Below, in pieces: positions 14,671-58,563 of a stretch of DNA of 64,000 nucleotides. A model generated the notes under the pieces. The model was not told where the DNA came from and did not search any database. It was given only the letters and a program-made list of their open reading frames with translations. The first letter of the stretch is position 1, and every line of letters starts with the position of its first letter. The DNA lies in NCBI RefSeq assembly GCF_019649055.1, contig NW_026570324.1, forward strand, positions 62,001 through 126,000, in the 5' to 3' direction. Origin of the DNA: Paramacrobiotus metropolitanus (taxonomy: Eukaryota > Tardigrada > Eutardigrada > Parachela > Macrobiotidae). The position numbers and the translations under genes are program-made.

Positions 14671-15019
14671 TGGTAGATCCAGAACAGATCCACGGACGGA
14701 GACAGAAACGGAATCTATCCCGTGGAAGTGAGCAATACGATCTGGATTGCGAACTATTGCGAAATCACAAAACGTCGCACCGTAAACTGCTGACTTTTTA
14801 ATATTGAAAGTTCCGACAATCGAAAATCAATAATGATCGGCGCAGCTCGATCGTAAAACGTGGAGCCCATTCAACAGCGTGCAACGCTGTGCAGCACGTG
14901 CTATGCCGCGCCCACTAACAAAACACAAGCCAATCAGAAGCGAGACACAACACAGGCCATAATCCAAAGGCGTAGCGCCTAGCGCCACTGACGTGAACGC
15001 TAGTGATCCCGGTCTCACA
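14671..15019 (-). repeat. 3' LTR of the giant retroelement
   Basis: 349 bp; on the sense strand it begins TGTGAGACC and ends CTACCA. It is identical to the other LTR except at one base (14763). Five bases (TCTAA on the plus strand) just outside it also match the five bases between the 5' LTR and the primer site, so the true edge may be 14666. It holds an inverted CCAAT-type box (CTGATTGG on the sense strand). The element's AAAGGTCA octamer is absent from it. Confidence 0.9.
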
Positions 15020-15296: not shown

Positions 15297-15712
15297 GCAA
15301 AGGTCACAGGTCCTGTCCACCGTTTTCCGCACTTTTGGCCTATTCCGCTCTGCTGAGCAATTCCGCGCATCCGTAGTGCGACTTTTCATCACAATCCGCT
15401 TGAGAATCAGGTGCGTATCAAGTACGACTTTAGGAATACTGCTTCATCTTTGGAATATGGTGCGTATCAATTGTACGACTTCAAAATGAGATCCATAAAG
15501 GTCATGGAGGGACGTCATATAGACCAGCGTAGTTCGCTTCCTCCCTGGTAAAGGTCATCCTTTGTTGAGATGATCCGTTGTGATGTGCGACTCGGTTTGG
15601 GTTAATGGTCCCAAAAGGTCATGCGACTTGAATTCTAACACGGTGACTCTCTTGGGCGGTAATAATCCCAAAGGTCATCCGACTTCTCTTCAAACTCTCA
15701 TCAAAGGTCATG
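15297..15712. repeat. trailer array of AAAGGTCA, plus-strand orientation
   Basis: Six copies of AAAGGTCA read on the plus strand at about 15299, 15496, 15549, 15614, 15669 and 15703, and one more at about 16453 beside the end of the last frame. Most continue as AAAGGTCAT. In the RNA they read as UGACCUUU, the complement of the motif that fills the coding body. Confidence 0.75.
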
Positions 15713-15828
15713 GAGGAACTTAGCCAATTTCTGCGGCCGTCAAGCATTTCTTCGCTTGCCTCCCTGGTAAAACTTTTAAGTTGACCTTTCCGTCGCACAT
15801 CCAACTTCAATATGCCTCGAGCGGCCAG

Positions 15829-16290
15829 AGTGCCGGCAAGGTTCACCGTAGCATCTCTGATGGGGCCGGCTAGTTACCGCATTGAATTTACCCCATGAAA
15901 TTTCCACATTTAATCTTTTACTCTTGTTCGCCGCCTGTGGCCAATGTTAATACGAGAAATCCGGCTCGATTACCGTAGTTTTTCTCGTTTCACCTTTAAC
16001 ACTGAATCGCTTAAGAAGAGTGCCGGCGCAGTTTACCGTAACAACTCTAATGAGGCCGACTGATTGCCGCATTAAGTTAACCTCATCAATATTCCACCTG
16101 TTGTCTTTCTCTTTTTCGCCGCTTGTGGCCCCGTTTCGTATTCAAGAGATCCGGCTTGATTACCGTTGTTTCTCTTGTGCATTTATAACACTGAGTCGCT
16201 TAGAGAGGAGAGCCGGCTAACTGCCGTAACTACTCCCTTGGGGCCGGCTTTATAGACCGAATCAATTTCAACCCCAATAGATACTCCACA
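15829..16290. repeat. tandem repeats of about 190 bp in the retroelement trailer
   Basis: Two full units (from about 15829 and from about 16019) and a partial third (from about 16209). Shared blocks include AGTGCCGGC, a GGCCG block, GCCGCnTGTGGCC, ATCCGGCT.GATTACCGT and ACACTGA.TCGCTT. The units differ at many positions, so this is an old duplication. It lies in the non-coding trailer between the last frame and the 3' LTR. Confidence 0.7.
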
Positions 16291-16463
16291 TGATTTCTTT
16301 TAGGCAATTCTGTGCTATAAACGCTGCAAACAACAAATACACAAATACAGTTTATGTTAACATGTCACGTGTCACGTCCTTTATACAACACCATTTTCAT
16401 CTTTGTGACGTACCGACAAATGCCGTAGACGTCCTTTTAATAGTGTGATCCTAAAGGTCAACA

Positions 16464-19205
16464 CTATTCCATTTCATTTGAATCGCCCTCGCCATCTCTC
16501 GGCGGGCGTTTCTTAGCGCTTTCCGGTTGGTTTCGGTCGGAAGTTCGGTCAACTGGTTCCGTCGAGTCAACTTCCATGACCTTTGTCGGGTCAACTTCGC
16601 GCTGGCCACGACCTTTACCTTGGCGACTTCGCTTAACCGCCTCAAGTCGATGGCGTGCGTCATTCTCTTCGAGTCGCAGTCTGCGGTTATCGGGGTCTTC
16701 CGCCAATCGACGCTGCACGTCGGCGAGATTATCCCGCAGCTGTTGGTTTCGGATGCCGCGTCGTCCCATCTGGTTAGGCGCACGGTCTGGACGACGGTCA
16801 CTTTTCTTCACTAAGAAGTCATCAATGTAACTTTCGATTCCGTCCACCGGTTCGACGTAGTCGCTTCCCAGAGAATCTTTAATCTTATTAATCCTTTCTT
16901 CTACTTGGGATGCGTGGCGCTGTGTCAAGTTGCCCTTTTCCATCCGTGTCTTACATTTCTTCAGCGCCTTCCGAGCCGTATGCGCTATGCTGATATGTTC
17001 CATCGGTTGTCCCAACTTGGCGACATGAGCTCGGAAGAACGGTGGAATGTCGTCCTTCATGGTGTTAGACACCAATTGATTTTGTGTCTTATAATGTGCC
17101 AGTCTCGCAGCAAAGACCTTTTGCCCCATCCTTTTTGCGGCATAGTCCTTAGGATCCACCTGTAGTCCTATCGACGCCCTTGCTGCAAGCAACTTGAAAG
17201 CTGGGTTCACATGTCGTAGAACAAACTGAGCCACGTATTCTTGGCGTTCGGGATAGTCTCTGTAGTAGAACTGTGTCATCCCGATTGGGTCAGTTGTGTC
17301 CAGCGGTACATCCAATAAACTTAAATCCACCAAACTATGTAGTCCATTCCGTCGAATAGGGAGATAACAGTCCCGTACCGAGTCGCGGTGGATGAACAAC
17401 TGACGGAAAAGTCCTTGTTCCACTCCTTGTTTAATCTCTCTCGCATAACCCGAGTCAAGTAGGAATTGGCTCAACTGTCTCAAAATTGTGCCGATTTTGT
17501 TGGCTTCAACCGAATCCGGCTCAAGTCCAAAGTATCGACAAATTTCGACCGTTTGTTCATCAATATCAGTCGTATTATATTCCATGTCGATGGTATCCGG
17601 TTGTCGGTTATCGAATCTGGAGTTCTGTCGCTGATCAGCCCGGCGATAATTATCCGGTTCTCGTTGACCTTCTGGTTCCCGTCGCTCTCCTGGCTCAGGC
17701 TGCGACGGTTCGTTACTAGCCGGTTGTTCCAGTTGAAGGTCACTATCCAGAATTATATTTCGTCGATGGGTCACGTTCTCTTGAGACGTTTCCGCAATCG
17801 AACTAGTCCCTTCCATCGCATCGTCTTCTTGTACGACGCTCACAATTGGATCCACTACATGAACCACTGACTCCACCCGCTGATACTTTGGGGGTGAATC
17901 TTCTCGTTCAGTGCTTGATGACCTTTTACTTGCGCCCGAGTCAAAGGTCGCGTAAAATGCAGCTCTCTGTTGCCATCTTTTATCCTGTGGGTCAGGCGTT
18001 CGGTTTCGCGTATGTTCACGTCTCTTATCCCATGACCTTTCGGGTGTTGACATCCTAACGTTACGATTACGGAAAGCAACTCCCATCGGCACCTGATGCC
18101 CTTGCTTTTCAGGTTCTGTACGGAATGTCTCCGCACGCCGTTTGTCTTCACGTTCTCTGGTCGCTGCCAATAACTTCGTTGTGTCAATCTTCCTCTGAAT
18201 GCTCATCTCTGTTACTTCATCGCCGTGGCGTACCCATCCTCTTCCGCCGCGGTAATCCCTGTCGCGGGACCGTTCGCGTGACCTTTCACTGTGGTAGTCA
18301 CGTGTCCTTTCACGAGAGTGTTCACGTGACCTTTCGCTCCGTCTTTCAGAAATCCGTTCATGTTCACGTGAATGTCCGCGTGACCTTTCTCTATGCGGAG
18401 GCGATCGTGGCCGTATGAAGCCTTCATCCCGTTTGAAGCTTCTGAGTGCTTGCAGCACATCGCTTTCAGTTCGGCGAGATTTACGTAGGTCATCCATACG
18501 TCTTTCGACTTCCTTCTTTATGTAGGGTGCCGGCGCGAACCCGTCTTGAAGTCGTTTCTTCTCCCGCAGCAGCATTTTGAATATCTCGTCTGACATGGCA
18601 GCTGGATCTTTCGTTAAGGTTTCAATTTGAATGATAAGCGACTGTCGTACGAGTTGCATTTCGTCTTCGTTAAGGCTGGCCATGCCCGTGGGTGCAGCTA
18701 AACCCGACGTACTGGGCAACGCCTCTCGTGCGGCCTGTTCGCTTGCCTTCTTATTTTGCGCATTAATTTTCGCGCGGAGTTCGTCTTCCATTTGCTGAGC
18801 TCGCATCTTTTCCTGGTCCTCTGTGAATTTCTTCCGATACGCGTCCGTATGTGGACACTTCAACGGCTCCAAGGTGTCATCCCAACCAGGTTCGTTGTTC
18901 CGGATCGCTTCCCGGTAGCGATCCTCGAGTAGCATTCGCTCTTCCACTGGGATGCTGCCGTAATTCCTTGCGCTTATCAGATTGCGGAAGACATCCAGGT
19001 TCCCGCGTTTGGCTTCCGAGACTCCAACAAGTGAGACGATATGTGGGTCATCCAGCTTGTGAATGCATGCGTAGCACGGAAATTTCTTATCAACCTTTTT
19101 GTTATTACGTAGACAGTCCGGACACTTTGGATTGTAGCCCGTTAACCGATCGATGTCTGCCGCCGTTCCCGTACGTTTAGGAGTGGCTTGACCTTTCTGT
19201 GCCAT
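16464..19205 (-). CDS. retroelement accessory frame D, 913 aa, zinc-knuckle-like and RS-rich
   Basis: This is the last frame before the trailer. Residues 28-47 hold two CxxC pairs (CPDC, CYAC), a possible zinc site. Residues of about 255-320 are rich in RS/RE dipeptides (SREHSRERTRD), as in RNA-binding RS domains. The C-terminal half is a folded-looking segment (YFGLEPDSVEANKIG, then LPIRRNGLHSLVDLSL) followed by a basic charged tail. No membrane segment or signal peptide is seen, so it is not an envelope protein. An ACAG acceptor-like site stands about 15 bases before the ATG, which fits expression from a spliced RNA (inference). No known family is recognised. The element's octamer recurs inside it. 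Confidence 0.6.
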   Translation of the reverse strand: MAQKGQATPKRTGTAADIDRLTGYNPKCPDCLRNNKKVDKKFPCYACIHKLDDPHIVSLVGVSEAKRGNLDVFRNLISARNYGSIPVEERMLLEDRYREAIRNNEPGWDDTLEPLKCPHTDAYRKKFTEDQEKMRAQQMEDELRAKINAQNKKASEQAAREALPSTSGLAAPTGMASLNEDEMQLVRQSLIIQIETLTKDPAAMSDEIFKMLLREKKRLQDGFAPAPYIKKEVERRMDDLRKSRRTESDVLQALRSFKRDEGFIRPRSPPHRERSRGHSREHERISERRSERSREHSRERTRDYHSERSRERSRDRDYRGGRGWVRHGDEVTEMSIQRKIDTTKLLAATREREDKRRAETFRTEPEKQGHQVPMGVAFRNRNVRMSTPERSWDKRREHTRNRTPDPQDKRWQQRAAFYATFDSGASKRSSSTEREDSPPKYQRVESVVHVVDPIVSVVQEDDAMEGTSSIAETSQENVTHRRNIILDSDLQLEQPASNEPSQPEPGERREPEGQREPDNYRRADQRQNSRFDNRQPDTIDMEYNTTDIDEQTVEICRYFGLEPDSVEANKIGTILRQLSQFLLDSGYAREIKQGVEQGLFRQLFIHRDSVRDCYLPIRRNGLHSLVDLSLLDVPLDTTDPIGMTQFYYRDYPERQEYVAQFVLRHVNPAFKLLAARASIGLQVDPKDYAAKRMGQKVFAARLAHYKTQNQLVSNTMKDDIPPFFRAHVAKLGQPMEHISIAHTARKALKKCKTRMEKGNLTQRHASQVEERINKIKDSLGSDYVEPVDGIESYIDDFLVKKSDRRPDRAPNQMGRRGIRNQQLRDNLADVQRRLAEDPDNRRLRLEENDARHRLEAVKRSRQGKGRGQREVDPTKVMEVDSTEPVDRTSDRNQPESAKKRPPRDGEGDSNEME

Positions 19206-19544
19206 TTTTCCGCTTCAATCTGTAATTATAAAACAATCCGTCATATTAACTTTTCCACGTTAATCCTTCCATTTCCTATCCATATCAAGGCTTTTCTATC
19301 ATTTTTACGCCTATTCCGTTACTGAGCTGAGACTTTCCTAGCTCCTGCTGCCTTTTCTATCACTGTAACGTGGTGACCTTTCTCACGTTATCAGCACTTT
19401 CTGACTACTGTGACCTTTTCTATTAGTCCTAGTACTGCTTTCAGTTGACCTTTCGTAACACTTTTCGCTTTCGTTTTAAACTGTTTTATGCTTTTTCTGT
19501 AATATGCAGGGTTCATTACTCGCTGCATATTACACTATATTAGT
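19206..19544. other. spacer between accessory frames with octamer copies
   Basis: A non-coding 340 bases with three plus-strand TGACCTTT copies (about 19374, 19412, 19441) and an acceptor-like ATTACAG (sense strand) near 19220. Confidence 0.5.
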
Positions 19545-20033
19545 TCACTCGGATTCTTTCATCGATGGTTTATACGGCTTGAAATCGATTCGGCCATCTG
19601 GCTTAATATGAAGCACTTCGTCCGCGATCAAGGCTTCGACGGCATTCTTAATCCACTCTTTATCGCTTTCAATATTCAAATCTCCCAATTCGTAATTGAC
19701 GGCCATGAAGTTTGAAAGGTCATTCCATGACGCTCCATTGGTACCGCCAATGGCGTCCAGAGCTACATCTGTGATGGCTATCTTCCAGGCCTCCAGTTCC
19801 ATTTTCAGTCTGGGCGTTCGTTCCGTGCCCTGTTTCGGAAGGTAGTAGACGACTTTGTTGTCCTTGTTATATTTACATCCCAACTTTCCTTCCTTATAAG
19901 CTCGTTTCAAGACTCGTTCAGTCATGTTAAGTGACGACCTTCCGTTCGTATTTATCGCCACTTGTCTTTTCAGGTCTGTCCCAAGCATTTCTTTTCCCGA
20001 ATAATCTGGAGTGCAGCTTGGACTTCGTTCCAT
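19545..20033 (-). CDS. retroelement accessory frame C, 162 aa
   Basis: Starts with MERSPSCTPDYSG and overlaps the end of frame B by about 60 bases in another phase. The segment from about residue 100 (SWNDLSNFMAVNYELGD to VLHIKPDGRIDF) has the helix-helix-strand look of a winged-helix fold. That is inference from pattern only. No family is recognised. Confidence 0.5.
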   Translation of the reverse strand: MERSPSCTPDYSGKEMLGTDLKRQVAINTNGRSSLNMTERVLKRAYKEGKLGCKYNKDNKVVYYLPKQGTERTPRLKMELEAWKIAITDVALDAIGGTNGASWNDLSNFMAVNYELGDLNIESDKEWIKNAVEALIADEVLHIKPDGRIDFKPYKPSMKESE

Positions 20034-23008
20034 GTACGATTATTCACGTCCAATGCCGGCCCTAACATGTAATCTGTAGCCTCCTTTGCCGGTGTACCGC
20101 TACTTTTCTGGGAGGATGTCGAGTCCGTTGGGTCAGCCGTCGCTGTCTCGTCGATCCTCAGCTTTGCCAGTGATCCTGATGATGACCCCGCCGATTTCGG
20201 TTCGGCTGTCTTCTTCTCCTCCTGTGGCAAAGTCTCTTGACCTTTTAAATCGCCGACCGACTTCGATCGTTCCTTCTCAAAGACGTCCTTTAATGGTATG
20301 AACAGTGATTTGTGAAACACCTGGCGCGCCGAATCCGCTTCAGCTTCTGCCGCTGCCTTATCCATCGGGAGCATGACCTTTTCTTTCTCCCGTTTGTCTG
20401 AAGCTTCATGACCTTTCGGTATAACTTCTGCGGTAGTTTCAGATGTCTTCGGACCTTTCGACTGTTCATCTTTTTCTGTCGTAAGTCCAGAAGGAGCCGT
20501 TATAGTAGCGTCGTCGTCGCTTTCCGATTCCGAATCCATTGGGCCTTTTGTCTTCGATGAAACTGTGACCTTTTCCATGTCCTGACTGTCGGACATATTA
20601 CAGTGGATCTGTCTTTCCGGTGGTATTAGACCGACTCTCGTATATCGGATCGGGTGTCCTTTATGTGCGTTTGTCGTGGCAAGGACGTTCTGTTTAATCA
20701 GCTTTGGCAATACGCGCTCGGTTGCCGTGTCGATCTCCTTTATCATTCCATTTCCGTCGTTCCAAACTGCGTTGATATATTGGCTAATCCGGTGACTCGT
20801 TGACCCTAATGGGCTTGTCATTCCCGCGATTGCCCTTTCTACTCGCATTGGGACCGCTTCATTCGGGGTTGTCAGCGCCTTATCCGAACTGGCTGGTCTG
20901 AACAACTTGGCCTCATACGAGAAACTCGGGTGCTTCTGTATAAGTTTTCCTGCGTTCCGCGCGAATTCCAATACGACGTCGAACTTTTGTTTAGTGAAGC
21001 TACGATGTTGTTTCTTCAAATACGTCTTCAGGCCTGATTTAAATTTGGATGTCACCGATGCTGTTCTTATTCGTATGAAATTCTTCTCCGCTCCGTTATA
21101 CGCTTTGATTATTTCATCGACCGTGTTCAAATTATCATCATCTGGACCATCAAATTCTTCGTCTGAGGTGAAGTCCAATTCACTCTCTCCATCTGGTTCA
21201 GCGTAATTGATCATTGCCATTGCATCAACTTTCATGGCTGTTTTGACCTTTCCTTTCGTCTTAACGGGCTCGCTCTTTGCTTTTTGCCCTTTATCCAAGG
21301 CCTCCGCTAAGCTTCTTGGCTCAGTAGTCCTTGATCGTGTCGTTTTCGAATCTGTATGTGACCTTGCACTGACCGTCGAAGTGCTTGGAAGGCTCGCTTC
21401 CGATGCCTCCGATTCACGCGACGTCTCCCGTTTCGCTTTTTCGCGAATCTGTTTATCCTTGCGCTCCTTTGGCGTGGATGCGGAGATGACAATGGGGACA
21501 GCTTGTTTCACCGCTATGACCTTTCCTTTGAGTTTTGATGGCTCTGCTGTAGCCGATTGAATAACTTTCTTTGACTTCGTAGGTGTCGATGACCTTTCTT
21601 CAACTTCGCCGACTGACTCGTCCAATATCTCGACATCATGCGACGCTGGTTCATCTCTTTTCTTCTTCCCGGTGCTTGTGCTATCGCTTTCGTCACCGCT
21701 CTTCTTCTTCTTATCTTCTTCCTCCTGTCGTTTCTTCTTATCCTCTTCCTCCCGTCGTTTCTTGAGGAAATCGCCTTTCTTAACCTTGTCACGGTTCATG
21801 GCCTCTTCCAATCTGGGCGCTTTCCTCGGTTTGACTTTTGAGGGCTTGACCTTTAAGGGCTTTTTATGCTTATCGGCCGTTTTTTCGTCTGAGCCTTCTT
21901 CCTCAGGTGGGTCCTCGTCTTCCGACTCTGGTTCGTCGTCACCAGGTGGATTACAATGGGCACAGTTTGGTTCATCACACTGAAGGTGCTCATGACTTCC
22001 TTGGGCAATCTCAAGTACTCTTTGTAGCGAACGTCTGGCCCCTCCTGTTTCAGTTACATTTGCCGACGTGCCCTGTGCCTCTTCCGTCTCTCCGGCTCCG
22101 CCTTCTTGTGCCGGGGGCTGGATTTCCAAATGTAGTGTCTCTGTCAGCTGTCCCTGTGAGGCGACCTCCCACAAAGGGTTCTTCTTAGCGTCGTAAAATA
22201 CCGTTTTGTACGATCCGTCTTCCATTCGTCTTGTGAGTCGGAAATGTGCTCCATCGATTTCCGCTCGATGCCGCATCATGCTGATCAGTGTACTCGCTTG
22301 AACCACGGCATCTGTCCGGTCACTTTCGGGTATCAGATCCCATAACTGCTCAACGGCTGCCTGATTCGCATTTCGGGCGCTCTCTTCTGATACGTCCCAT
22401 GGAGCATATGGAACCGGGTCTCCTGTTATTGGATCGACTATCACTGCAGTTATGGTTTCCACAGCTTCTCCATTACCGCCGAAAAGTCTGAGGGTGACCT
22501 TTCTGCTTGTCGCCTCTGTATATCTCTGGACCGACTCATAATCATCTGACGATCGTTTTTTCGGATCTGGATCCGCCGTCGGTTTTGAGCGAGTTCTCTC
22601 TTTGGTCAACAGTTTGCCGTCCGTTGTGTATGTATATGCCAAGTGGTCATCATCTGTGCCCACTTTGATACGGATCCATGCATCTTCTTCGGTTGCAACT
22701 TTAGATACCACGTGCTTCATCATCTGAACGATAACTCTTGGGTTATGACGTTCTTCTGGAGGAATAAACTGTAGCGCCTCATTGACTATCGTTTTTGACT
22801 CTTTCCCAATGGCATCCTTGACTGACCTATCCGCGAGGGGATTATACGAGTCGATCTCTTTGTTCGTTTTCTTATCGACTATTCGTGCGGTGACCTTTCG
22901 TTCTCTATGGTCTTCGCCAGTGTACTTGGCCGTGAAGCTTCTACACTTCGGAAATCGAATTTGACCTTCTGTTCCAGCTGGTGTGGGTGGCGCGCTCTTT
23001 CTACCCAC
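19970..23008 (-). CDS. retroelement accessory frame B, 1012 aa, charged
   Basis: A long uninterrupted frame. The first 300 residues look folded and contain two alike sections, around FTAKYTGEDHRERKVTARIV and VTLRLFGGNGEAVETITAVI, each followed by IVD and a WDLIP or FIPPE helix, suggesting an internal duplication. A low-complexity middle rich in K, E and D follows (EEDKKKRQEEEDKKKK), then another folded-looking stretch (about 620-790) and an acidic tail. There is no membrane segment. It is not recognised. KGH, KVT and ERS triplets mark octamer copies in different phases. Confidence 0.55.
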   Translation of the reverse strand: MGRKSAPPTPAGTEGQIRFPKCRSFTAKYTGEDHRERKVTARIVDKKTNKEIDSYNPLADRSVKDAIGKESKTIVNEALQFIPPEERHNPRVIVQMMKHVVSKVATEEDAWIRIKVGTDDDHLAYTYTTDGKLLTKERTRSKPTADPDPKKRSSDDYESVQRYTEATSRKVTLRLFGGNGEAVETITAVIVDPITGDPVPYAPWDVSEESARNANQAAVEQLWDLIPESDRTDAVVQASTLISMMRHRAEIDGAHFRLTRRMEDGSYKTVFYDAKKNPLWEVASQGQLTETLHLEIQPPAQEGGAGETEEAQGTSANVTETGGARRSLQRVLEIAQGSHEHLQCDEPNCAHCNPPGDDEPESEDEDPPEEEGSDEKTADKHKKPLKVKPSKVKPRKAPRLEEAMNRDKVKKGDFLKKRREEEDKKKRQEEEDKKKKSGDESDSTSTGKKKRDEPASHDVEILDESVGEVEERSSTPTKSKKVIQSATAEPSKLKGKVIAVKQAVPIVISASTPKERKDKQIREKAKRETSRESEASEASLPSTSTVSARSHTDSKTTRSRTTEPRSLAEALDKGQKAKSEPVKTKGKVKTAMKVDAMAMINYAEPDGESELDFTSDEEFDGPDDDNLNTVDEIIKAYNGAEKNFIRIRTASVTSKFKSGLKTYLKKQHRSFTKQKFDVVLEFARNAGKLIQKHPSFSYEAKLFRPASSDKALTTPNEAVPMRVERAIAGMTSPLGSTSHRISQYINAVWNDGNGMIKEIDTATERVLPKLIKQNVLATTNAHKGHPIRYTRVGLIPPERQIHCNMSDSQDMEKVTVSSKTKGPMDSESESDDDATITAPSGLTTEKDEQSKGPKTSETTAEVIPKGHEASDKREKEKVMLPMDKAAAEAEADSARQVFHKSLFIPLKDVFEKERSKSVGDLKGQETLPQEEKKTAEPKSAGSSSGSLAKLRIDETATADPTDSTSSQKSSGTPAKEATDYMLGPALDVNNRTWNEVQAALQIIREKKCLGQT

Positions 23009-23106
23009 TGGGACTGGGCCTTGTGGCTTTGCCGGCTCAGCTGGTGTTGCTTTACCTGACGTGGCCTTCTTCGTTCGCTGCCCTTTCTTGTCAGTTTCTT
23101 TTGGGC

Positions 23107-24459
23107 TTATCGTTGGTGACCTTGCTCTTTTCCACTCTTCGTGGCTCCGCTAGATGGTTCTGTAACCGAACTGGTCCGTCCACGTGTTGATCCTGCGGTC
23201 GAGCTGGCCCGTGACCTTTCTGCTCGTTCAGTTAATTCGGCATCAATCTTTCTCTTTGTTGCCAAAAGGTCACTGTCAGACATTTCATCCACCGAAGTGG
23301 CTTTTTCGACTAATGGCTTAGATGTTCCTGCGCTGCTGGTCGCTGGAATCGTTTTCTCTTCCGGAAATACTTTAAGGTATCTCAGAACCTTCTCGATAAT
23401 CCGCGGCCACTGCCTGCCATGTACTGCCGGATGATATTGCCACATCGATGCAATTTTTATCGCTAATTCTTTGCGCTTGACTTCTATCGCTTTTGTTTTC
23501 TCTTTCAACGCTGTGTGGCATGGTTTGATGACTGCCTCCAGGCTGATCAACTTTCCATACCATCCATGTTCGTCTTCCACTCTCATGTGAATTCTGTAAA
23601 GGTCACGGCACATCCTGTTAAAGTCCTGAATGGCCGTTCCATCCGCTTCTGTCAACTCTTCTGCTTTGTCCACGATTACGTTTAAACGCGCATCATCCTC
23701 TCTGAGGTCCAAAGGGAGTTTCGGCGCGTACTCGTGTACTGAAGGTTCGCCTGGTGGCGTCAACCGTAACCCATCTGGTCCCGTTTCGTCCAAGTTAGGG
23801 CCCAGTGATGGCAATATGCCTCGCGGTCGTGGTGAATCGAACCGGTTTCCGCCTCGTCTTCCTCCTCTCTGTGGCGAGTTCCGGTGAGATCGTTGCGCTC
23901 CAAGTTGCTGCGGTGTTCTCATGCGAGGCGCTCCGATATCCGACAGTGACAAGCCTCCCGTCTCCGGAAAAGGCGGTAATATCGGAGATGACCTTTGTGA
24001 TCGTGGTGGAGTTCCGCTGAATCCACCATGTCCCATAAATCGACTCGGTGTGGTCTGTTGCGGTGGCGGCATCAACATTCTTGCCGGTCCCATCATTACT
24101 TGTGGTGGTCCCATCGGTGGGGTATACGATCCTGGATACGGTTGATACGGGGCGCCCGTTACTTGTCCCGAATACTGGGTTCCGGCAGGTGAGCCGTGGT
24201 GCACCCAGTTAACCGTGTCCTGATAACTCGTCTGCTGTCCTGGATCGTGATACACGTAATATCCCTGGCCGCCATAGTAACCTCCTTGACTTGTTCCAGG
24301 TTCATTCTGAGCCGTTCCCACTGACGACGTCGATCCTTCACCATATGAGGTGTCATAACCGTATTCACCTTCCATTCTTATAGGTGTAGATGCTTTTAGT
24401 GGGTTTCCAATACTTTCCGAGTCTGAATTATCCGAGTTTTGTCGTTCCAATCTGTCCAT
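23107..24459 (-). CDS. retroelement accessory frame A, 450 aa, Gly/Pro/Gln-rich
   Basis: The first frame downstream of pol. The N-terminal 170 residues are rich in G, Y, Q and P (a disordered, prion-like composition). Residues of about 240-370 look helical (LEAVIKPCHTALKEK, WPRIIEKVLRYLKVF), and the tail is Ser/Thr-rich. The bases just before the ATG hold TTTTATAG followed by AAGGTAAGC, an acceptor next to a donor, which would suit a spliced subgenomic RNA (inference). It is not recognised and not envelope-like. Confidence 0.55.
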   Translation of the reverse strand: MDRLERQNSDNSDSESIGNPLKASTPIRMEGEYGYDTSYGEGSTSSVGTAQNEPGTSQGGYYGGQGYYVYHDPGQQTSYQDTVNWVHHGSPAGTQYSGQVTGAPYQPYPGSYTPPMGPPQVMMGPARMLMPPPQQTTPSRFMGHGGFSGTPPRSQRSSPILPPFPETGGLSLSDIGAPRMRTPQQLGAQRSHRNSPQRGGRRGGNRFDSPRPRGILPSLGPNLDETGPDGLRLTPPGEPSVHEYAPKLPLDLREDDARLNVIVDKAEELTEADGTAIQDFNRMCRDLYRIHMRVEDEHGWYGKLISLEAVIKPCHTALKEKTKAIEVKRKELAIKIASMWQYHPAVHGRQWPRIIEKVLRYLKVFPEEKTIPATSSAGTSKPLVEKATSVDEMSDSDLLATKRKIDAELTERAERSRASSTAGSTRGRTSSVTEPSSGATKSGKEQGHQR

Positions 24460-24584
24460 TAACTGTGCTTACCTTCTATAAAACGAAACAATAAAGGTTA
24501 ACTTTTGCACAGTGGTGACCTTTTCTTTTTCCTTTTCGACTCCTATTTTTAATTTATTGTGACCCCTTATTTATGTCTATGTGG

Positions 24585-27500: not shown

Positions 27501-30500
27501 AGACTGTTGAACTCTTCTTCATGTACTGCTGTCCAGTCTTTTTTCACGTGTTTATCTTGTCTCAGCAACTCATACAAGTGGCAAGTCTTCTGTGCGTATC
27601 CCATTATGAACTTGCGATAATAGTTCGCCAATCCAAGAAATGACCTTAGTTGCCGCTCTGTTTGAGGCCGTTTAAATTCTGAGACCGCGGTGACCTTTTC
27701 CGGATCCATTCGAATTCCATCTTCACTGAGTATGTGACCCAGGAATCCCATTTGTCTCATTCCAAATTCGCATTTCGTTGGCTTAATCGTGAATCCCGCT
27801 TCAACTAAACTCATTAAGACGTTTCTCAAGTTTTGCATGAAAATCGCCCAAGTTTTTCCGGCGAAGATAACGTCATCGATGTACCCGAAAACGCAACCCT
27901 TTCTTTTCGCTTTCGACAATACTTTGTCCATGCACAGTTGGAATGTTGCTGGCCCATTGCAAACTCCAAACGGCATACGTTTAAACCGATACATTCCATC
28001 TTGCGTGACAAAGGTCGTCTTATTGATTGACGCTGGATCCATTGGGATCTGCCAAAATCCACTTTGTAGGTCCATTTTTCCATAATATTTGTTGCCTGCA
28101 CGCGTCGAGCAATTCATCTGGATTCGGTAGCGGGTAGTTATTCTTTCTCGTTAGCTTGTTAAGCATGATGTAATTGACGCAAAATCGTTATTCCCATTGT
28201 TCCGTCGCCATTTTTCTTTACTGCCAGCACGACTGGGAAACTCCACTCGGCATCTGACGGTTCGATCACATCTTGTGCCAACATTTCTTCAATATGTTTT
28301 GTTATGAACTCACGTCCTGTCCAACTCGTTCTGGCCGGGTTGCATTTAACTGGTTTCGCGTCTCCCGTGTCGATTACATGAGTGACCCCCTTCACGTCTC
28401 CATACGGTTTCTTTGATGTGGGTAAAACCTTCCAGAATTCCCAAAACGCGTTGTACACGTCGTTCTTTACAGTCCCTCACGATTCGGTATTTGCTACTGT
28501 GATTTGCAATGACGATTTCGAAGTATTTTCCTGTGGTCCGTCACTCCTGCCAACGGTTGCACTTCAGTTCACTTGTGGGACCGGTGTAAACATCAGCTTG
28601 TTTTGAGCCGGTGCATATTTTCCCATCTTGACCTTTACACGTGCAGTTTGACGGTTTCAATTTGATTCGCTGATCGCTGTAAACTTTGATCACGTCCTTC
28701 GACATTCTAGCTTTTTCCACTTTCAATCTTCTGACTTTAATATCCTTTTCTTTTTCCTCATCTACTTCGTCATCTTCATCCAAGTCCATTAAATCCTCTT
28801 GCTCGAAAGGTCACTTACACCTGAATCTTCCGAAGTTGTTGAGTTATCACTTGAACTCGTCCACTCTGAATCGAATTACTGCTCTCATATTCTGTGCAGT
28901 GGCTTGACCTTTGTCAGCCTTTTCAAGTCAACTCCTCTTCCGATGAAAGGTCACTTTCGTTTTCTCGCGAATCGCTAAGTTTTTCGTTTCGAATTTTGAG
29001 CAGGGTTTGTCCCTTCTTTTGCCTTTCGCCCATTTCGTGCGGCTACTCTCGGGTGACTCCTTGCTACCCGAATTCTCGTTGGTGACCTTTCTGATTGATC
29101 GGAGTTTGACCTTTCTTCGTCCGATTTTGACTTTTCCAGTTCATTTATTTCTTCGCGGCTCGTTAATGGCTTTTCGGTCAACTCGACCGGCGGACATTCC
29201 TCACCGTTATCGAGTGACCTTTCCCGTTTTTGCCTCAGTTACTGGGTTTTGTTGTTCGTTCGATATCCTTTCAACTTCCTCTTTAAACCTTTTCCACATT
29301 TCACCTCTGTCCGTTAACATTTGCGCAATATCGAAAGCCGACTTTGAACTTTCTTCTGTTTCATTCGATTGTCCTTCGGCTATCTCTTTAACTGGTTCCT
29401 CTTTCTCTGCTTCTTTGACAGTCCCTTTATTGGTTTCATCCTGTTGAACTGTTTCGTAACCTTTAGGTCGTTTAGGACCAACAAAGATGCAGTTTGCCAT
29501 CAGCTCTTCGGTGACCCATTCATCATTTGGAATCGTTTCATACATGCACCATGTATCACCACCTCGTTCTGGGTAGTCCACTCCGTCTGGATCTGGTGCA
29601 AAGGTCACCTTTTTCTTTTGCATCAAACCCGGTAACCTTCTTTCCGGGTTACCTGTAGTTCTCGCATTTCTTTTACGTCAAATTTGGGATTTCTTCCTCG
29701 AATTTCTTCCAGTATTTCTCGAATGCTTTTCGTTTCCTCTTTTAACGCGTTGTAGTACACTTCAAGTGATTCGTAGACAGGTGTACCAAGTCCTGCCGGG
29801 AAGATGATCGTTCTCCTTCACCTTTATACATGTGGTTCACACGGAAGTCCCAAAAAAGGTCGACTCTCGCTTCTTCCCACATTTCTCCTTCCTCGGTCAT
29901 TTCTTCTATCTCTCGTTCAAATCTCCTTTCTGTTGCTACCGGATCGAGAGGATCTTGGATTCCTTTCTCCACACGTTGCAACCAATGGTTTAGCCATCTG
30001 CCTCTTCCGATTATAAAACTTTCCACGCATGACAACCACGTTCGATATCTATTCCAATGATACCGTTCGATGTGTGGTTTCCACATTTCGTTTGTCCGCA
30101 TGATGCTTTTCACCTCCTTTTGGGCATGACCTTTAAGGTCTGCTAATGCGGCATTACATCTTGGCCATTCTGAAAGGTCATCTTGGGAGGCATTTTCACA
30201 ACATTCCGCGCATTCCCACTGTGGTTGCACTCTGCACGGATCCTCAAAGTAACCGTGGTGACAACTCCCGGCTCGTTCTTCTGGAGTTAATGTCCTTTGA
30301 CTCGCTTCAGGTTTAACCTGTTCCTGTACTGTGGTATCTTCCTCACATTCAATTGGGGTCACGCTTTTATCCTCAGAGGATATTTCAATGACCTCTGGTT
30401 CTTTTTCTGTTCGGTGACCTTTCAATTGTTCGAGTGCCTTGTCGCGGATTTCGCTTGTAAACATCTGTTCCTCTTCAACTATTCGTTTCAAAACTCGTAA

Positions 30501-33299
30501 CCTTTCACTCTTTTTATCCTTCCCCACTTTAGCCGTCTTTATTTCCAGTGCCTCTGGTACTGGGATAGGCTTTGCCCACTCCATGTCTGGCACAAGAGAT
30601 TGTTTCGCTGCAACTGCCGCTTCTTTCTGTGTGGCAATTATCTCTTCAATCGTTGGTGACCTTTCGGTAGCAGGTCGTGGTTCGAAAAAGGGTTCCTTTT
30701 GAGATTCACGTTCTGTTACTTCCTCTTTGGTTTTATCTGAAAGCCTTTCATTTTGGGTAGCAGATCGTGGTTCGAAAAGGTTCGAATTACGCTCTCGTTC
30801 CAAGTTCTCAGTTGCTGGTGACCTTTCGTCTTCCTTTCCCAGTGCCTCTGGTACTGGGATAACTTTTCCGACTTTTCCATTTTCATTTTTCGTTTCCAGT
30901 GCCTCTGGTACTGGGATAATTTCTTCCTGCTGCACTTTTGTCATTCCCGGTGCCTCTGGTACTGGGATGACCTTTTCTCTTCCCTTCTGTGCCAGCAAGG
31001 TCCGATTTAATGTCTTTTCGATCTCCTGCTGAATCATTTGCAACTGCTCAAATGGTGACAATTCTTTTCGCGTCATCTTTTTCTTTTCGTTTCCCGGTGC
31101 CTCTGGTACTGGGATTAGCGTTTTATTAACCATTTGAGCATTTCCCGTCTGTTTTACAAGTTCGGTGACCTTTCCGACTTGAACTTTGGCGACTGGTTTT
31201 GGGTCATCTTTCTCTTCTTCACCTTCGTTATCCATTAGTACGAATTTCTTTTCCAAGAAGTCAAATCCCAATAACACTTGTACGTCGTCACACTTCGGTC
31301 GGACGTAGAATGAATGTTCGCTTGTCTTCTTCCTTAAGGTCACTGGCGCTACACAGTAGTGCGTCACCAGGAATCCTGACGTTCCGCTAATTCCATTTAT
31401 TTTCACCAATCTGTCAGGTGGTAATGGGAGCATGTGGAGTCCATTCTTCTCGCAAAACGGTTTGCTGATCAGCGACGTCTCAGCGCCGGTGTCCAACATT
31501 GCGTTGACCTTTATGTCTCCCACTTTCACTTCGTGTGTGTACGCTTCAATTCTCTTGGGCAGTTTTCCATTTTGAATCTTCAAAGTATGAATCTTACATT
31601 TCACAGGAATGAGCGATACTGGTCCCGGATCCATATCGGGAAGCACTTGTCCTTTTGCTGGAGTGCTATGACCTTTCAATATCTCGCTCAACTTATCAAT
31701 CCTGTGTGGGACGTCAGTTCGAACATCGTAATATTTTCGCGGCTTTGTCTTTTCCGTTTGCTTCTCTGGAGCCATTTTACCACTGGTGACCTTTTGCACA
31801 TTCTGCACTTGCTCATTTGCTTTTGTGCTGTGCACGTGACCTTTAGTCACTTCATTTATCGTCTGATGGATTAGTTCCTCTTTACGGTTTTCATTTCGCT
31901 TATCTCTCAGCTTCTCAATGACTTCACTTGTTATTTGGTCAGCTCGCTTCAATTCGTCTTCTTCACCATCTCTCATCTCCTCTGGTGACCTTTCATATGT
32001 GACCATATTATATCCCTTTTCGGTCATCCATTGCATCACTTTTGCAGATACTTCATTGTTCGTTTTCGTTGGGTCAATTTGCGAAGACATCCCGTCTGTT
32101 CGGGCTGGTGACTTGTCATTGGCATCCTTTTGCAGTGCTTGTGATAAGTCCCGTGACCTTTCAACTGCGCTACTCTGTTGCGTTTGCGCTATCTCATTTG
32201 ACCGTCCTTTTTGTTCATTTTGCGCTAAGTCCTGTGACCTTTCGTTGCGCTTCATGACAAATCCGCCACCTGTCAGCTTTTGTATGGGGACTTTTTCTCC
32301 ATAATTCGGCGGTTTATCCTGTGGTGGAGCATTACGTGAATGATTCCAGTCAGCGAATGTCTTCTTATATTCCTCTGGATTGAATACTGGGACTGGGTTC
32401 GATGACCTTTGCGCTGGTTTCCCGGTAACCAACTCTTCCAGTCGCTTTCTTTCACATTGCGTTCGCAACTGTTGCATGTCCCAGTAGTCCTCTTGTGACA
32501 TTCTCGCTTTCTGCTTTGCTTTCGGCGTCACAGGTATCCACATCCCGTGATTGCCATTCGGTCTGTAGGCCACTTTTTGCCACTTCTCCTTCTGTTGTAA
32601 TGTTACTGCGTCCACAAGTGAGTCGTCGGAGTTCTGTGCCATTTCATTATTCTTTTGCTGCGCTGTTCGCAGTGTCAAGTCTGTTTCTTGACCTTTTAAC
32701 ACGACGCTATCGCCGTGACCTTTGGCGTTCACACCTGCTCCGTGACCTTTCGCTTGAACTTTTCCAACAGAAGGTGACCTTTCATCTTTACTAATGACGG
32801 TGATATTCTGCTTAATCCATTCTTGCCTTATTCGCTTCTCTTCTTCGTCTTCTGAACAATTCCAAAACTTTGGCTTTGGTTCCCCGTAACAATCGCAACT
32901 TGGCTCCTTCGCCTTATCGTTTTCTGCCAAAAATTTCCGGAATTTCGCGTGTTGCTCATTTTCCTCTTGCGCAGTATCGTTCTGCGGTGGTGAATTTTGG
33001 TCTTTCGATTTGCCATTTATCTGTTTCCGAAACCATTCGTGGTGCATTTCCACTTCTTCTGCGGTTTCAGTTTGCGGTTTCTTTTGGTTTAACAGCGCTT
33101 GTCGAATCTTGGCATTACGTAATGCACGACGTTCAGCTAACACTTTCTCGCTGCAATACGGTGACCTTTCATTTTGCTGCACTTTTTGCAGTGTCGCGCT
33201 ACCGTCACGACAATTTCCACTCGCAGTACCATTCTGCGGTGACCTTTGGTCCCGTTGCGTTTCCACTCGCAGTACCATTCTGCGGTGACCTTTATCCAC
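24585..33299 (-). mobile_element. pol region of the giant retroelement
   Basis: Order on the sense strand: a long low-complexity N-terminal part (33.3-31.6 kb), aspartic protease with DTGAETS near 31.49 kb, a linker full of repeated short peptides (31.2-30.5 kb), RT (active-site YIDD near 27.87 kb, preceded by IEPSDAEW), RNase H (ECDAS near 27.4 kb, RTDHQAL near 27.24 kb), and integrase. The integrase has an H-C-C zinc part around HLGFEKTL and CQGC near 26.25 kb, catalytic Asp in ADLKGPL and HTDRG, and Glu in HPEGQGQVE. A charged C-terminal extension with FFEPP/FFEPR repeats runs to 24585. RT before RNase H before integrase is the Ty3/gypsy order. The region is interrupted about three times. 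Confidence 0.85.
30544..31118 (-). repeat. five IPVPEA(P/L) repeats in the pol linker
   Basis: The plus-strand block GTGCCTCTGGTACTGGGAT occurs at about 30548, 30843, 30900, 30950 and 31100. It encodes IPVPEAPG or IPVPEALE each time. Even third codon positions agree, so the copies are recent or held at DNA level. Confidence 0.8.
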
Positions 33300-33490
33300 T
33301 TGTACTGGTTTCCGATAACCAGTTCTTTTGCTGTGACGGCATCCTTATAACCGTTCCATTTCCTTTTGCGATGACGGCATCCATTTAGCCGTCTCTTGCT
33401 GTGGCGGCATCCATCTAGCCGTTTCTTGTGGTTGCGGCATCCATATAGCCGGTCCATTTTGCTTTTTCGCTGACGGCATCCGTATAGCCG
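33300..33490 (-). repeat. five GGCATCC-TAGCC repeats upstream of pol
   Basis: The plus-strand block GGCATCCATnTAGCCG recurs five times at 30-40 base spacing (about 33337, 33377, 33407, 33437, 33475). In one sense frame it gives WMPQPQET, WMPPQQET and WMPSSQKE. It lies between the gag and pol parts of the retroelement. Confidence 0.65.
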
Positions 33491-33595
33491 TCGCAGTGGT
33501 CACATTCACTGCAGTACCATTCTGCAGTGGTGACCTTTCCGTTCCCTTCTTATCCGGTGGTTTAGGGTCGGGACGATCAGTAGGCTCACCGGTGC

Positions 33596-36500
33596 CTACT
33601 GATCTCGCCCGTTTCCCTGAACCGGCGCCCCACCTTGTTGCGCGCCCTGCACATTTCCTTGCACATTTCCTTGTCCGTCGTTATTTACCGGGACATAGTT
33701 TTGTCCGCCTCCATTATTCTGGCCACCACCATTATTTTGGCCACCACCCTGTTGGTAGTTTCCGCCTCCATTTGCACCGCCTCGGTTGCCGCCATTCCAA
33801 TTTCCGCGGCCGAAGCCTCTGTTTCTTCCTCTGAAGCCGCCGCGGCCGAAGCCACCACGGCCGTAGCCACTATTCTGGCCACCGCCATTTCCATTATTCC
33901 CGTTTCCTTGTTGATTTGGGAAGTTTGCCCGAGCCTGATACCATTGCGCAATCAGGTCATATCCATTTGCGACTGCTTGGCGCCAACCACCGAGCCCGCG
34001 CAGTCGTTGCCACTCGTTAAAGGCAAACAGGTTCGGGTTCTGTTCCGGTGGTGTGTTGGCGAATTTGCATCCCTGGGTTTGGTGGTTGCCGTACATACAA
34101 TACTGGCACATCTGCACACCATTTGCAACCCATCCATCGATCATCTGAAACTTGAATTCCGTCCGTGACCCCTGGTTCTGCTGGAAGTTATTCTGGTTTC
34201 CTCTATTTGGCTGAAAGTTGCCTTGACCTTGACCTTGTCCCTGATTCTGGAAGTTCCTTTGACCTCCATTCCAATTTCCGTTTCCATATCCATTTCCGCC
34301 AAAGTTTCCATTTGGCATTCCCTGTTGTGGTGTCGCTACGTTCGGTGGTGCCACATTCTGGGGTGCTGGCCTCACTTGGGCCGCCGCTTGTATCGCCGCC
34401 ACCATCGCGTATGTTATTGGCTGCCCCGTCTGGCCATCGATAAAGGTCACTCTTTCCGTGACCTCTCTTACAGGGTTTCTGCACGGAATTCCACCGGCTG
34501 CTGGATCGGTGCAGCTGCCATTCTCTGTTGCGGTACGTTCTCCACCTGGCCTTGGCGGATAGTCACGTATTCCTGATTACGTTGACCTTTTGGCGCCTTA
34601 TACTTTTCATCTCCTCCTGTTGCCCAGTGTCGGAAAAAGTCCTTTACATCAGTCGGCGTCTTACACTTTTGTATGCGCAATGCCTTATAGAGTTCATTGT
34701 CTCTGCTGCAATCCTTCGATAGAGTTCATTGTCCCTTTGCTGCCCTGCTTCTCAAGTGATGATTCTCAGTGATGATTCTCTTTGCTTTGAATCGCATCAT
34801 CGCTTGGTAGTACTGGTCAAGTGATTCCTTTCCGAGTTCGAACTTCCTTGCATAGGCCTCTCGTAAGCCTAAGACTTCTTCGTCTCGGTCACCATACTCG
34901 TCTTTGAATTTCTCCATCCATTCTTTGACTGTGTACTCGATTCCGTCTTCTGATGCTATGTCCTTTTCTCCTTCGAACCAACCTTTGGCCGGCCCTTTTA
35001 CCGCGCTGGCTATTTCAATCATTATTTGTTTGTCGGTGAGCTGGTAGGTATCCTGGGTTTCTCTCACCAATCTTGTCCAACCATTCACGGTGTCACGGCT
35101 GCCGTCAAAGGTCATCAGAGGTGTTTTCCGAGCCATGGAATCGAGCGCTTTCGCTAATGCGAACCCCCCTCTCAGGTTGTCTTCTTCTTCGCTGCTCTCA
35201 TCATCGTTTTGGTTTCGCCTCTGCTTTGCGTAGCGGGATTTCCTCGGACGCTCCTGCCGACTAGGGGGTCTGTCCCGTCGCCCTTCGTCGATGAACGCGT
35301 TGACTTCGATATGTGGGGGAAATTGTGAAGGTTCACCTCGGCTCGAGTGTGAATAACCTGATGGTGGTTCCTTATCCTTATCGTCTTTGACCTTTTCACC
35401 GTCTTGTTCTGCTTTGACATTTCCTCTGCCAGTGCCAGTCCGTAAGGGCATTTCAAAATGGAAGCTTTTGCCCGTGCCCGTTTCATGCGCCTTGCTGTAA
35501 CTGGGCGGGGGAGACTCCACTGTTGCCGTCTTCACTCCATATTGCAGGAGTTGTTCGTCCTTATGTTTGACTGACGTTTGGAGTGCCTTGTTCTCATCTT
35601 CCAATCGTTTAGTTCTCAGTCGAAGTTCTTCTCTTTCTCTCTTTAGATCAGAATTTTCCAGGTTGACCTTTCGTAAGTGTTCGTGCAATTTAAAAGACTC
35701 CTGCTGGGTGACCTTTTCATTTTCCTGTTCCATCTTTTTGATGTGCTCGACCAGCTCACTCGTTTCATTTTCGAGTTGCTGATACTGCCCAGCGGCTGAT
35801 CTCAGCTGATCCTTGATTGCGATCAACTCATCATCTTTTGCCAATGCTGTGGTGGTCATCTCGACGAGGTCAGTGTTCAGCTTTGCAATCTCCTGACTCT
35901 TTTGAGCGACTTGTTGTTGCCACTCTTTGTCCTTCAGCTCCAATGTTGTGACCATTGTGTCCAGTCGCCGTGCTTCCTTCTGCCATTTGAGTCCTTCCTT
36001 AGTGACCTTTTCAATGTCTTCTGTGACCTTTTCGTTCTCCTGGTTGACCTTTTTAATTTCTTCTTTCAGGCGTGCTCCTTCAGTGGCTGTAATGTCTCTT
36101 GCCTCTCGCATCGCCTTGATTGCCTCATTGCGCGACTTTTCAGCTTCGTCAGCCCGTTCCTGATGACCTTTCGATTCGAGTTGCAGAGTGCTGACAGCCT
36201 CCTCCCGTAGCTTCAAGTCATTCCTTAGTTTGAACGTCTCCGTTGCCAATGTCGTTAACCGTTGTGTGACCTCTGCGAATTTGGTCGCGTATTCGTCCCG
36301 TTTAGTTTCAGCTTCAGTGACCTTTTGACGCGACTGGTCGCACTCGTCCTTCAATTCCGCCAAGTGCCGTGACCTTTCTGCTGATTCCTCTGACATGCTT
36401 TCATTAAGGTCATGACCTTCCATTTCTCTGTCATCTGCCATCTTTAGGTACTCTTCTGCAATTTCCTTTTGTCGCTCATATTTGACTTTCCAACCGTCTG

Positions 36501-37372
36501 CGGAGCTCTGGAGGTCACCCTGTTGCTGTTCCAATTCGAATAAGCGAGTTTCGAGTGTCGATAATCTGTCTCGATACTCCTGTTTCCGCTTGTCCGCCTG
36601 ACGTTCAGTGGCATCAAGTTCATTTTCCAGCTCCCTTACGCGTCTCCTAAGAGTTAACGTAGGACTGTTTGGTGACTGTGGTCGTACATTGATAACCTTT
36701 CCATTCTGTGTCCGGTCAATTAAATGTTCGGGGATATCCTTAAACGGGGTCACTTCTTCTGCTCGGTCAGCCTCTTTCATTGCAGTTTGAAAGGACATAT
36801 TCATCGTTGCGTCATCATCTGTGAAGTATGACTCGTTGGATTCATCTGAGACCATTGGAGTTGCAAAAAGGTCATCATCTGCCGCTTTCATTCAATGAAA
36901 GGTCATCCAATCCCAATTCAGTCAATCCCTCTTCGGTGACCTTTGTGTTTCTCTCTTCCACTTGAGCCAGGTTCACATTTTTATCCTGCTCATGCGTTCC
37001 GCTAATGGTAGCATCCAGCTGTGATGCTCCAACTGGTTCCACTCCTTTCCCTGTGGGCATTTCCTCCCCGGTGACCTTTTTCTGGTTCATCGGATGACTT
37101 CCCGCCGCAGATGCGGGAGTATCCTTTCCGTCACCGCTGGAGCTCTCCTCATTCTGTGTAGCTCCAAGCGCCACTTGGTATGTGCTATCACTGCCTTTGC
37201 TGTCTTTTCTTGCAAAGGTCACAGCCGCTCGGGTCTGTCTATCATGTCCGACTGGACGCGCGAGCGACTTGTATTCCTTCTTATATGGATCAACTGCGCT
37301 TTGTTGTGATCCTCGGGAGCTCCTGCTTCCCTGACTGCTGGTAGATGTCGGTTCCTCTTGTTCTTTGTCCAT
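33596..37372 (-). mobile_element. gag region of the giant retroelement
   Basis: The sense order starts with a short Ser/Gln-rich frame (37372-36875, 165 aa). It overlaps a 721-aa frame (36891-34726) by 17 bases. That frame has a long coiled coil (about residues 70-470, heptad-like EKVTQQ and LRKVNLEN stretches), then a charged linker, then a capsid-like segment (GWTRLVRETQDTYQLTD, VKEWMEKFKDEYGD) typical of retrotransposon gag. Last comes a Gly/Asn-rich nucleocapsid part (34450-33596) with one CCHC knuckle, CQYCMYGNHQTQGC (C-x2-C-x4-H-x4-C), near 34.1 kb, and RGG-like repeats. A long coiled coil ahead of the capsid is unusual for Ty3/gypsy gag. Confidence 0.8.
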
Positions 37373-37447
37373 GTTGATCGGATAACTTGGACGCTCCTGT
37401 CAATTGTTCTCACACACACGTTATTGTATGGTTTATTCAATTTTCCT

Positions 37448-37965
37448 AAAGGTCACTTTGTACCTCCGAAATTTTTCTAAGTCCTTATTAAAGGTCACTT
37501 TTCGACTGAAAAATTTCGACTAAGTCCTTTGTAAAGGTCACTTTTTCGGTAAAAAGTTCGAGAGATTTGCCCTAAAAGGTCACTTTCGGACAAAACTTCA
37601 AAACCGCTTTTACAGCTCAGAATACGTTAGCGAATGAAATCCTACAGCTGCTGATATCGCTGTACTATTAATCAACTCAATTCCAACTTCGTTAAAGGTC
37701 ACCGTTGATCACTTTCAGATCATAAAGGTCACTAAAATTAGGTCAATTTGGTCAATTCCAACTTTTTGGTAAAGGTCACTTTTCAAAGTCAAAAGTCAAC
37801 TTCTGGTCTCAAAGGTCACTTCCCGACTCAACTCAACTCAAAGGGTCACTTTCCAGTTCAATTTCTGTTAAAAGGTCACTTTCCACTCAATTCCAGTTAA
37901 AGGTCACTTTTAAGCTCAATTCGATCAAAGGTCACTTTTCCTTTGTCTCAACTCAAAAGGTCACT
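37448..37965. repeat. leader array of AAAGGTCACTTT, 12-13 copies
   Basis: AAAGGTCAC, mostly followed by TTT, occurs on the plus strand at about 37448, 37490, 37533, 37575, 37694, 37734, 37771, 37811, 37871, 37899, 37927 and 37956, with one variant (AAAGGGTCAC) near 37840. The array lies in the untranslated leader between the hairpins and the first gag frame. In the RNA each copy reads AAAGUGACCUUU or close to it. Confidence 0.85.
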
Positions 37966-38854: not shown

Positions 38855-38859
38855 TCTAA

Positions 38860-58560: not shown

Positions 58561-58563
58561 TAG

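Follow-up and report, generated by a model that had tools for sequence, protein, structure and literature searches.

A single octamer, AAAGGTCA, is held by purifying selection along the body of a giant retroelement in the tardigrade Paramacrobiotus metropolitanus. The element, a Ty3/gypsy-type long terminal repeat (LTR) element of 24.5 kb that includes several orphan open reading frames (ORFs), lies in a 64 000 nucleotide stretch of contig NW_026570324.1 (positions 62 001 to 126 000; this whole stretch is referred to as the window) and is read on the minus strand. Selection acts on the exact word and is independent of the encoded proteins. The slightly longer word AAAGGTCAH appears to be a site in duplex DNA, present about four times per kb of the element body, and the most likely reader is the host nuclear receptor NR4A, an assignment that we make tentatively, both NR4A binding and its effect being inferred.

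On the plus strand, the window includes 38 copies of AAAGGTCA and 72 of TGACCTTT, and 104 of these 110 sites fall inside the element, 70 in the coding sense and 34 antisense, leaving six in the remaining 39.5 kb. The density is thus 42.5 per 10 kb in the element versus 1.5 in the rest of the window and 1–3 in six 10 kb stretches of host DNA. A second-order Markov model predicts 1.9 copies on both strands of 23.5 kb, AAAGGTCA is the commonest octamer in the element, and its 24 one-mismatch neighbours each occur 0–5 times per strand. A first-pass annotation of the window had estimated about 70 and about 15 copies in the two orientations between 16.5 and 37.1 kb, about 20 more in the leader and trailer, none in the LTRs and only a few in the other 39 kb. 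Counting gave 69 TGACCTTT and 14 AAAGGTCA on the plus strand of that interval, 12 in the leader, 8 in the trailer (with 84 in the body), none in either LTR and the six outside, and the comparison with host DNA that the annotation had proposed likewise bears out the excess. Genome-wide, there are 795 triplets of AAAGGTCAH with gaps of ≤30 bp (overlapping matches counted) versus 2 for the reversed pattern, and some of the triplet-cluster places listed are leaders or coding pieces of the giant clade to which this element belongs.

The word is not a by-product of the coding sequence. Eight ORFs contain 67 sites, compared to a mean of 7.2 (maximum 15) in 500 synonymous codon shuffles and 0.9 (maximum 6) when codons were permuted. 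All three sense phases are used (12, 19 and 26 sites), yielding the peptides KGH/KGQ, ERS/QRS/KRS and KV(T/M/I/K/N), and antisense sites occupy two phases (4 and 6 sites), the third being one that would create TGA. The first-pass annotation had seen the word in all three phases, producing KGH, (E)RS(P) or KVT, and had argued that the pressure must act on the nucleic acid and not on the protein. That argument is backed by the use of every sense phase, by synonymous conservation and by the conservation of antisense sites, and in the codon-preserving shuffle it had suggested the octamer is an outlier. An origin of the word in codon usage, peptides or base composition is ruled out by the shuffles together with synonymous conservation.

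Copies were sought in the P. metropolitanus assembly (169.8 Mb, 533 contigs), where a 1461-base pol probe matched at least 40 places at 88–100 % identity (40 of 271 candidates were scored). Same-family loci were aligned to the window element using blastn, alignments of <600 bases being excluded, and after removal of overlapping loci (L002, L003, L016 and L017) the set comprised 38 alignments from 22 loci and 413 window sites, counted once per alignment. Exact retention was found for 382 of the 413, compared to 243.0 expected from other octamers. The excess is present at 60–82 % identity (35/41 sites, 10.7 expected) and in each of the successive further identity bands (53/63, 29.5 expected; 116/128, 70.4; 76/79, 50.8; 102/102, 81.7). 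When the overlapping loci are included, the alignments cover 95 distinct window sites, of which 73 are intact in all covering loci and 22 are missing from one or more, and sites present only in copies occupy eight distinct positions. With these loci again included, a synonymous test was restricted to unchanged amino acids and to codons whose third base falls in the motif. Below 82 % identity, the same codon was used in 50 of 52 cases, where the retention of codons for these amino acids elsewhere predicts 29.5, and the other bands gave 111/113 (87.6 expected), 285/287 (221.8), 153/154 (126.7) and 259/259 (234.2). In alignments of <91 % identity, per-base identity is 0.92–1.00 at the eight motif positions and 0.75–0.97 in the flanks. 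Antisense sites are conserved as well as sense sites, both in ORFs (28/33 and 124/140; controls 0.45 and 0.48, respectively) and between them (15/16 and 29/33; controls over all parts 0.31–0.56), and in the leader 12/12 sites were kept, in the trailer 14/18 antisense and 3/3 sense.

The word is also found in more distant giant elements. In a diverged giant family on contig C97 (L042, together with the end of L037), L042 carries 61 sites. It aligns to the window element at 58 % nucleotide identity, and 28 of its sites coincide in position with one of the 53 in the window piece, compared to 4.6 % for other octamers. L051, representing a third family, contains 10 sites within 2 kb; it has three in common with the nine in the window piece and six with the eight in the L042 piece. 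Sites are thus both shared and turned over, and hence the word is old in the clade, where its density is maintained in addition to individual sites. The first-pass annotation had known of no LTR element with such a motif load; the load is in fact common to the giant relatives, and it is absent from the sister families with related pol genes that were examined. Downstream of pol, 20–28 copies of AAAGGTCA are packed into 1.25–1.5 kb in three of the loci (L033 2100–3350, L035 2280–3780 and L037 150–1600), in segments that mostly fail to align to the window copy.

Orientation, spacing and flanking bases bear on what reads the word. The ratio of sense to antisense sites is 55:7 in the six ORFs used for a codon control (57:10 in eight), close to the 6.4:1 expected when the codons lying outside the sites are permuted, and the coding parts therefore need no orientation preference; codon composition accounts for most of the ORF bias. 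Purine strand bias, considered as an orientation rule, was not clean, since antisense sites also lie in a purine-rich sense strand (mean 0.594 versus 0.623 for sense sites). Among the 104 sites of the window element, start-to-start gaps of <20 bp number 0 versus 10.2 in a jitter null, and the 84 body sites considered separately gave 0 versus 6.3. Short gaps are likewise depleted in L042 (3 versus 9.6) and in four other segments (0–1 versus 2.1–7.2, P from 0.001 to 0.07). We interpret this depletion as the footprint, about 20 bp wide, of a protein bound to duplex DNA. No helical phasing or preferred pair spacing was apparent when the gap list was inspected by eye. The base following the octamer is never G in the window copy (0/70 sense, 0/34 antisense; 0/104 overall) or in L042 (0/61). 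When five pieces are pooled (window, L042, two dense arrays and a further diverged piece), G follows 6 of 234 sites; hence the avoidance of G at this ninth position is strong, not absolute. Together with the conservation of antisense sites, these features fit a site in duplex DNA that is recognized by a monomeric protein.

The octamer is the NGFI-B response element (NBRE), to which, according to PMC10419244 and PMC3281863, a monomer of the NR4A member NURR1 binds, and PMC4695184 assigns to the A box, GRRGRLPS, the minor-groove contact used in monomer binding. The window element conforms to this site both in sequence, with 104 exact copies and few one-mismatch forms, and in its use as a lone half-site, with no preferred pair spacing apparent and a weak flank bias only. 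The first-pass annotation had recognized a nuclear receptor half-site, as we do, and had named the FTZ-F1/ERR type, which fits less well than the NBRE of NR4A. A T at position −1 is present at 8 of the 70 sense and 12 of the 34 antisense sites, and CAAGGTCA occurs 5 + 0 times versus 70 + 34 for AAAGGTCA. The word thus begins with A and does not depend on a preceding T, which sets it apart from the known consensus and extension of the FTZ-F1/ERR site. For NR4A2, the JASPAR matrix has a C after the half-site. In the host genome, the receptor zinc-finger family gives 63 matches at exon level. Three of these exons, in order on contig C45, share 86, 73 and 65 % identity with an NR4A domain, include LKGRRGRLPTKPK, encode VVRTDSLKGRRGRLPTKPK and have the A box GRRGRLPTKPK, and so, by sequence similarity, probably represent a host NR4A-like receptor with the right DNA-contacting box.

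If this is the reader, a host NR4A of the fly Hr38 type would bind AAAGGTCA as a monomer, and about 100 separate receptors could be placed along the provirus, the 12-site leader array being the densest cluster of this copy. As sites occur throughout the body and are lacking in the LTRs, the benefit would lie in coverage of the length of the provirus; occupancy of the whole 24.5 kb might maintain it in an open state that can be transcribed, or place it under receptor control, beyond any switching of the LTR promoter. Alternatively, the benefit may be in the handling of complementary DNA (cDNA). Selection that freezes an octamer in all three sense frames and on both strands of about 20 kb of mostly coding DNA would represent a new form of retroelement dependence on a DNA-binding protein, and suggests that retroelement genomes can carry regulatory or handling signals along their entire length. 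With about 100 natural replicate sites per copy and a pol region present in 40 or more copies, the family is also a resource for testing which protein reads the word.

Several points weigh against this reading. About one octamer in 5–10, at a rough guess, resembles the site of some known factor; hence the match to the NBRE is by itself no proof, and a selected octamer may coincide fortuitously with a common transcription factor site. As many as 84 body sites also seem more than an enhancer would require. The word is preceded by G at 36/70 sense sites (6/34 antisense), individual flanking positions reach identities as high as 0.96–0.97, such that the sharpness of the motif edges is relative, and all 12 leader sites are in one orientation, though tandem duplication accounts for part of this. 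The avoidance of G at the ninth position is not part of the NBRE as given in the excerpts of PMC10419244 and PMC3281863. Finally, the sister families designated B, C and D are without AAAGGTCA, and family C is rich in GGTCGG.

The absence from the sister families is complete in the pieces available, with no AAAGGTCA in six (L044, L045, L046, L047, L049 and L050) totalling 29.8 kb, a figure in which part of L047 is probably flanking DNA. In successive pieces of family C, GGTCGG is found at 45, 48, 33 and 209 per 10 kb, and at 4.2 in the last 2.4 kb, compared to 38 in family D, 17 in family B and 3–5 in the host stretches and the rest of the window. ACCGACC occurs 17 times in family C versus 3.85 in synonymous shuffles. 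Between copies of family C the word is kept at 13/24, 16/24 and 12/14 sites versus 0.71, 0.79 and 0.76 for controls, so that retention is not clearly better, and against family D there is a modest excess (9/19 and 10/18 versus 0.33–0.35). The proposal that each sister family has a private word was therefore not adopted, as the family C sites are not clearly conserved and families B and D have no clear word of their own. GGTCGG is, to our knowledge, not an NR4A site, and sister families that lack AAAGGTCA, with one rich in a word of another kind, fit a reader that changes with the element. The case for a reader that changes, and that the element itself may encode, draws mainly on this enrichment, which, with no clear retention above controls between copies, is suggestive only. 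Family C (L045, L047, L049 and L050) is enriched in WGGTCGGW, and L047 4501–5600 includes 23 GGTCGG in 1.1 kb.

A broader form of the NR4A reading, possible in our view though rather doubtful, is that the word is a dispersed address over the body of a retroelement clade, comparable to Chi or uptake sequences, with a host nuclear receptor coating the provirus or its cDNA, and that related families have switched the word and probably the reader. The element might instead encode the reader, in an orphan ORF or the integrase, that co-evolves with the word, in which case the match to the NBRE would be fortuitous and the word would label element DNA as self, so that it could be tethered to chromatin, compacted as cDNA or brought into the nucleus. 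The sister families with related pol genes but no AAAGGTCA and the WGGTCGG enrichment in family C are in accord with this, as are the two large orphan ORFs, whose homologues were found only in P. metropolitanus. However, integrase domains aside, none of the ten ORFs has a DNA-binding domain above the Pfam cut-off (the match to TMF_DNA_bd reaches only 16.4 of 35 bits), the AlphaFold model of the 913 aa ORF was uninformative (mean predicted local distance difference test score 45.9) and too poor for searching, and the family C word, not clearly kept above controls, is perhaps a different phenomenon. We consider an element-encoded reader unlikely. Host receptors could also act on the linear cDNA rather than the provirus, carrying it to the nucleus or tethering it to receptor-bound chromatin. 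The sites do span the whole internal length in both orientations, close pairs of copies are found on contigs C76, C7 and C59, and there is a precedent in CREB sites that link plasmids to microtubules, as described in a review (PMC5705778). The pairs could equally reflect regions that tolerate insertion. Many nuclear receptors already reside in the nucleus, and this route seems quite improbable.

The first-pass annotation had left RNA packaging, a host RNA-binding protein and DNA binding open; DNA binding is favoured here, and packaging is disfavoured by the codon-expected orientation and the near-ordinary RNA structure. A signal in RNA could serve packaging, export or stability via AAAGGUCA, or via pairing of UGACCUUU in the leader and trailer with AAAGGUCA in the body, and since the leader and trailer of the sense RNA mostly have the complement of the body word, such long-range pairing is possible. 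Relative to composition-matched controls, sense sites are slightly more paired (unpaired probability 0.537 versus 0.575, P 0.058) and antisense sites are not (0.368 versus 0.356, P 0.55), values that overall lie near those of ordinary RNA. The equal conservation of antisense sites, an orientation that tracks codons and the lack of G at the ninth position in both orientations, which pairing would not require, make an RNA-level role very unlikely. That the count is an artefact of protein repeats, codon bias, tandem duplication or base composition is scarcely credible: the leader does include a 28 bp tandem array, and some copies have short arrays with gaps that are often multiples of three, but the shuffles, the use of three phases, synonymous conservation and the less conserved flanks all argue otherwise, and no control run reproduces the body sites.

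Among known systems, the NBRE of NR4A (Nur77/Nurr1; Hr38 in the fly) is the closest, with the same exact octamer, no fixed partner spacing and, in this host, NR4A-like exons with the A box; the difference is that about 100 putative sites are here found in one transposable element, mostly in coding DNA. The Drosophila gypsy insulator, described in PMC9576066, has 12 Su(Hw) sites in 460 bp, and the leader here, also in a Ty3/gypsy-type element, repeats a single word 12 times within 516 bp. The likeness is one of layout; the motif and the probable reader differ, and a further 92 sites lie in the body and trailer. In the titles and opening lines of abstracts returned by a literature search, we found neither a description of such a motif load in an LTR element nor a parallel to the load in the body, which is no proof of absence. 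Bacterial Chi, DNA uptake sequences and FtsK orienting polar sequences (KOPS) are dispersed genomic words that, like this one, are short, over-represented lengthwise and selected as DNA, coding regions included. Here, the carrier is a eukaryotic retroelement and the coding sites are explained without strand polarity. Giant Ty3/gypsy-type elements share the LTRs, protease and reverse transcriptase–RNase H–integrase; this one differs in its 24.5 kb length, several orphan ORFs and a selected dispersed word.

Features of the element (window coordinates; the element is read on the minus strand)
Feature	Position	Strand	Remarks
5′ LTR	38855..39208	-	353/354 identical to 14666-15019; zero AAAGGTCA
Leader array	37448..37963	-	12 AAAGGTCA, every one antisense to the coding strand; part is a 28 bp tandem repeat
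ORF, 165 aa	36875..37372	-	No Pfam match; 2 sense + 2 antisense sites
ORF, 721 aa, charged	34726..36891	-	Sole Pfam match TMF_DNA_bd, far below cut-off; 9 sense + 2 antisense sites
ORF, 284 aa, Gly/Asn/Gln-rich	33596..34450	-	1 antisense site
ORF, 1185 aa	29742..33299	-	Retroviral-type aspartyl protease, residues 590-683; 21 sense + 1 antisense sites
pol ORF	25340..28117	-	Reverse transcriptase (C-terminal part), RNase H, H2C2 zinc domain, integrase core; 6 sense + 2 antisense sites
ORF, 277 aa	24585..25418	-	No Pfam match
ORF, 450 aa	23107..24459	-	No Pfam match; 2 + 2 sites
ORF, 1012 aa	19970..23008	-	13 homologues besides itself, P. metropolitanus only; 10 sense sites
ORF, 913 aa	16464..19205	-	CPDC...CYAC near N-terminus; 10 homologues besides itself, P. 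metropolitanus only; 7 sense sites
Body	16464..37372	.	84 AAAGGTCA, both strands counted; start-to-start gaps all ≥21 bp
Trailer	15299..16460	-	8 AAAGGTCA: 7 antisense + 1 sense
3′ LTR	14666..15019	-	Direct repeat of 38855-39208; zero AAAGGTCA

The order of domains identified using Pfam, with the protease upstream followed by reverse transcriptase, RNase H and integrase, is that of Ty3/gypsy-type LTR elements. The reverse transcriptase match in the pol ORF begins only at profile position 63, the upstream part being in a different frame. Eight of the ten ORFs scanned had no Pfam match above cut-off, the exceptions being the pol and protease ORFs. Rfam gave zero matches above gathering scores, and no target site duplication was found in a check that took a 96-base part of the repeat as the LTR.

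A second element at the right edge of the window, recognized by an integrase zinc domain, has background levels of the word only (3 sites in 16 kb, window 58000–64000 plus L041). At window positions 56470–57857 there is a tandem array of 91/178 bp units that include words of the AAAGTGACA and CCATTCAC types, which are common in DNA outside the element. Elsewhere in the genome, at C6:3031996, C7:413480 and C1:566901, clusters of AAAGGTCAT lie within TCCACCTTTCTG-type repeats.

Copies of the element include close pairs 31–40 kb apart (C76 634981/674757, C7 783839/815394 and C59 843754/877791), more than a rough hand estimate gives for 40 scattered copies, and on C97 a copy adjoins a relative of the diverged family. 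Public gene models for homologues of the ORFs at 16464–23008 are named as fray2-like kinase, RNA-binding protein 25-like, caldesmon-like and myosin-2-like, host-like names that are probably misnomers.

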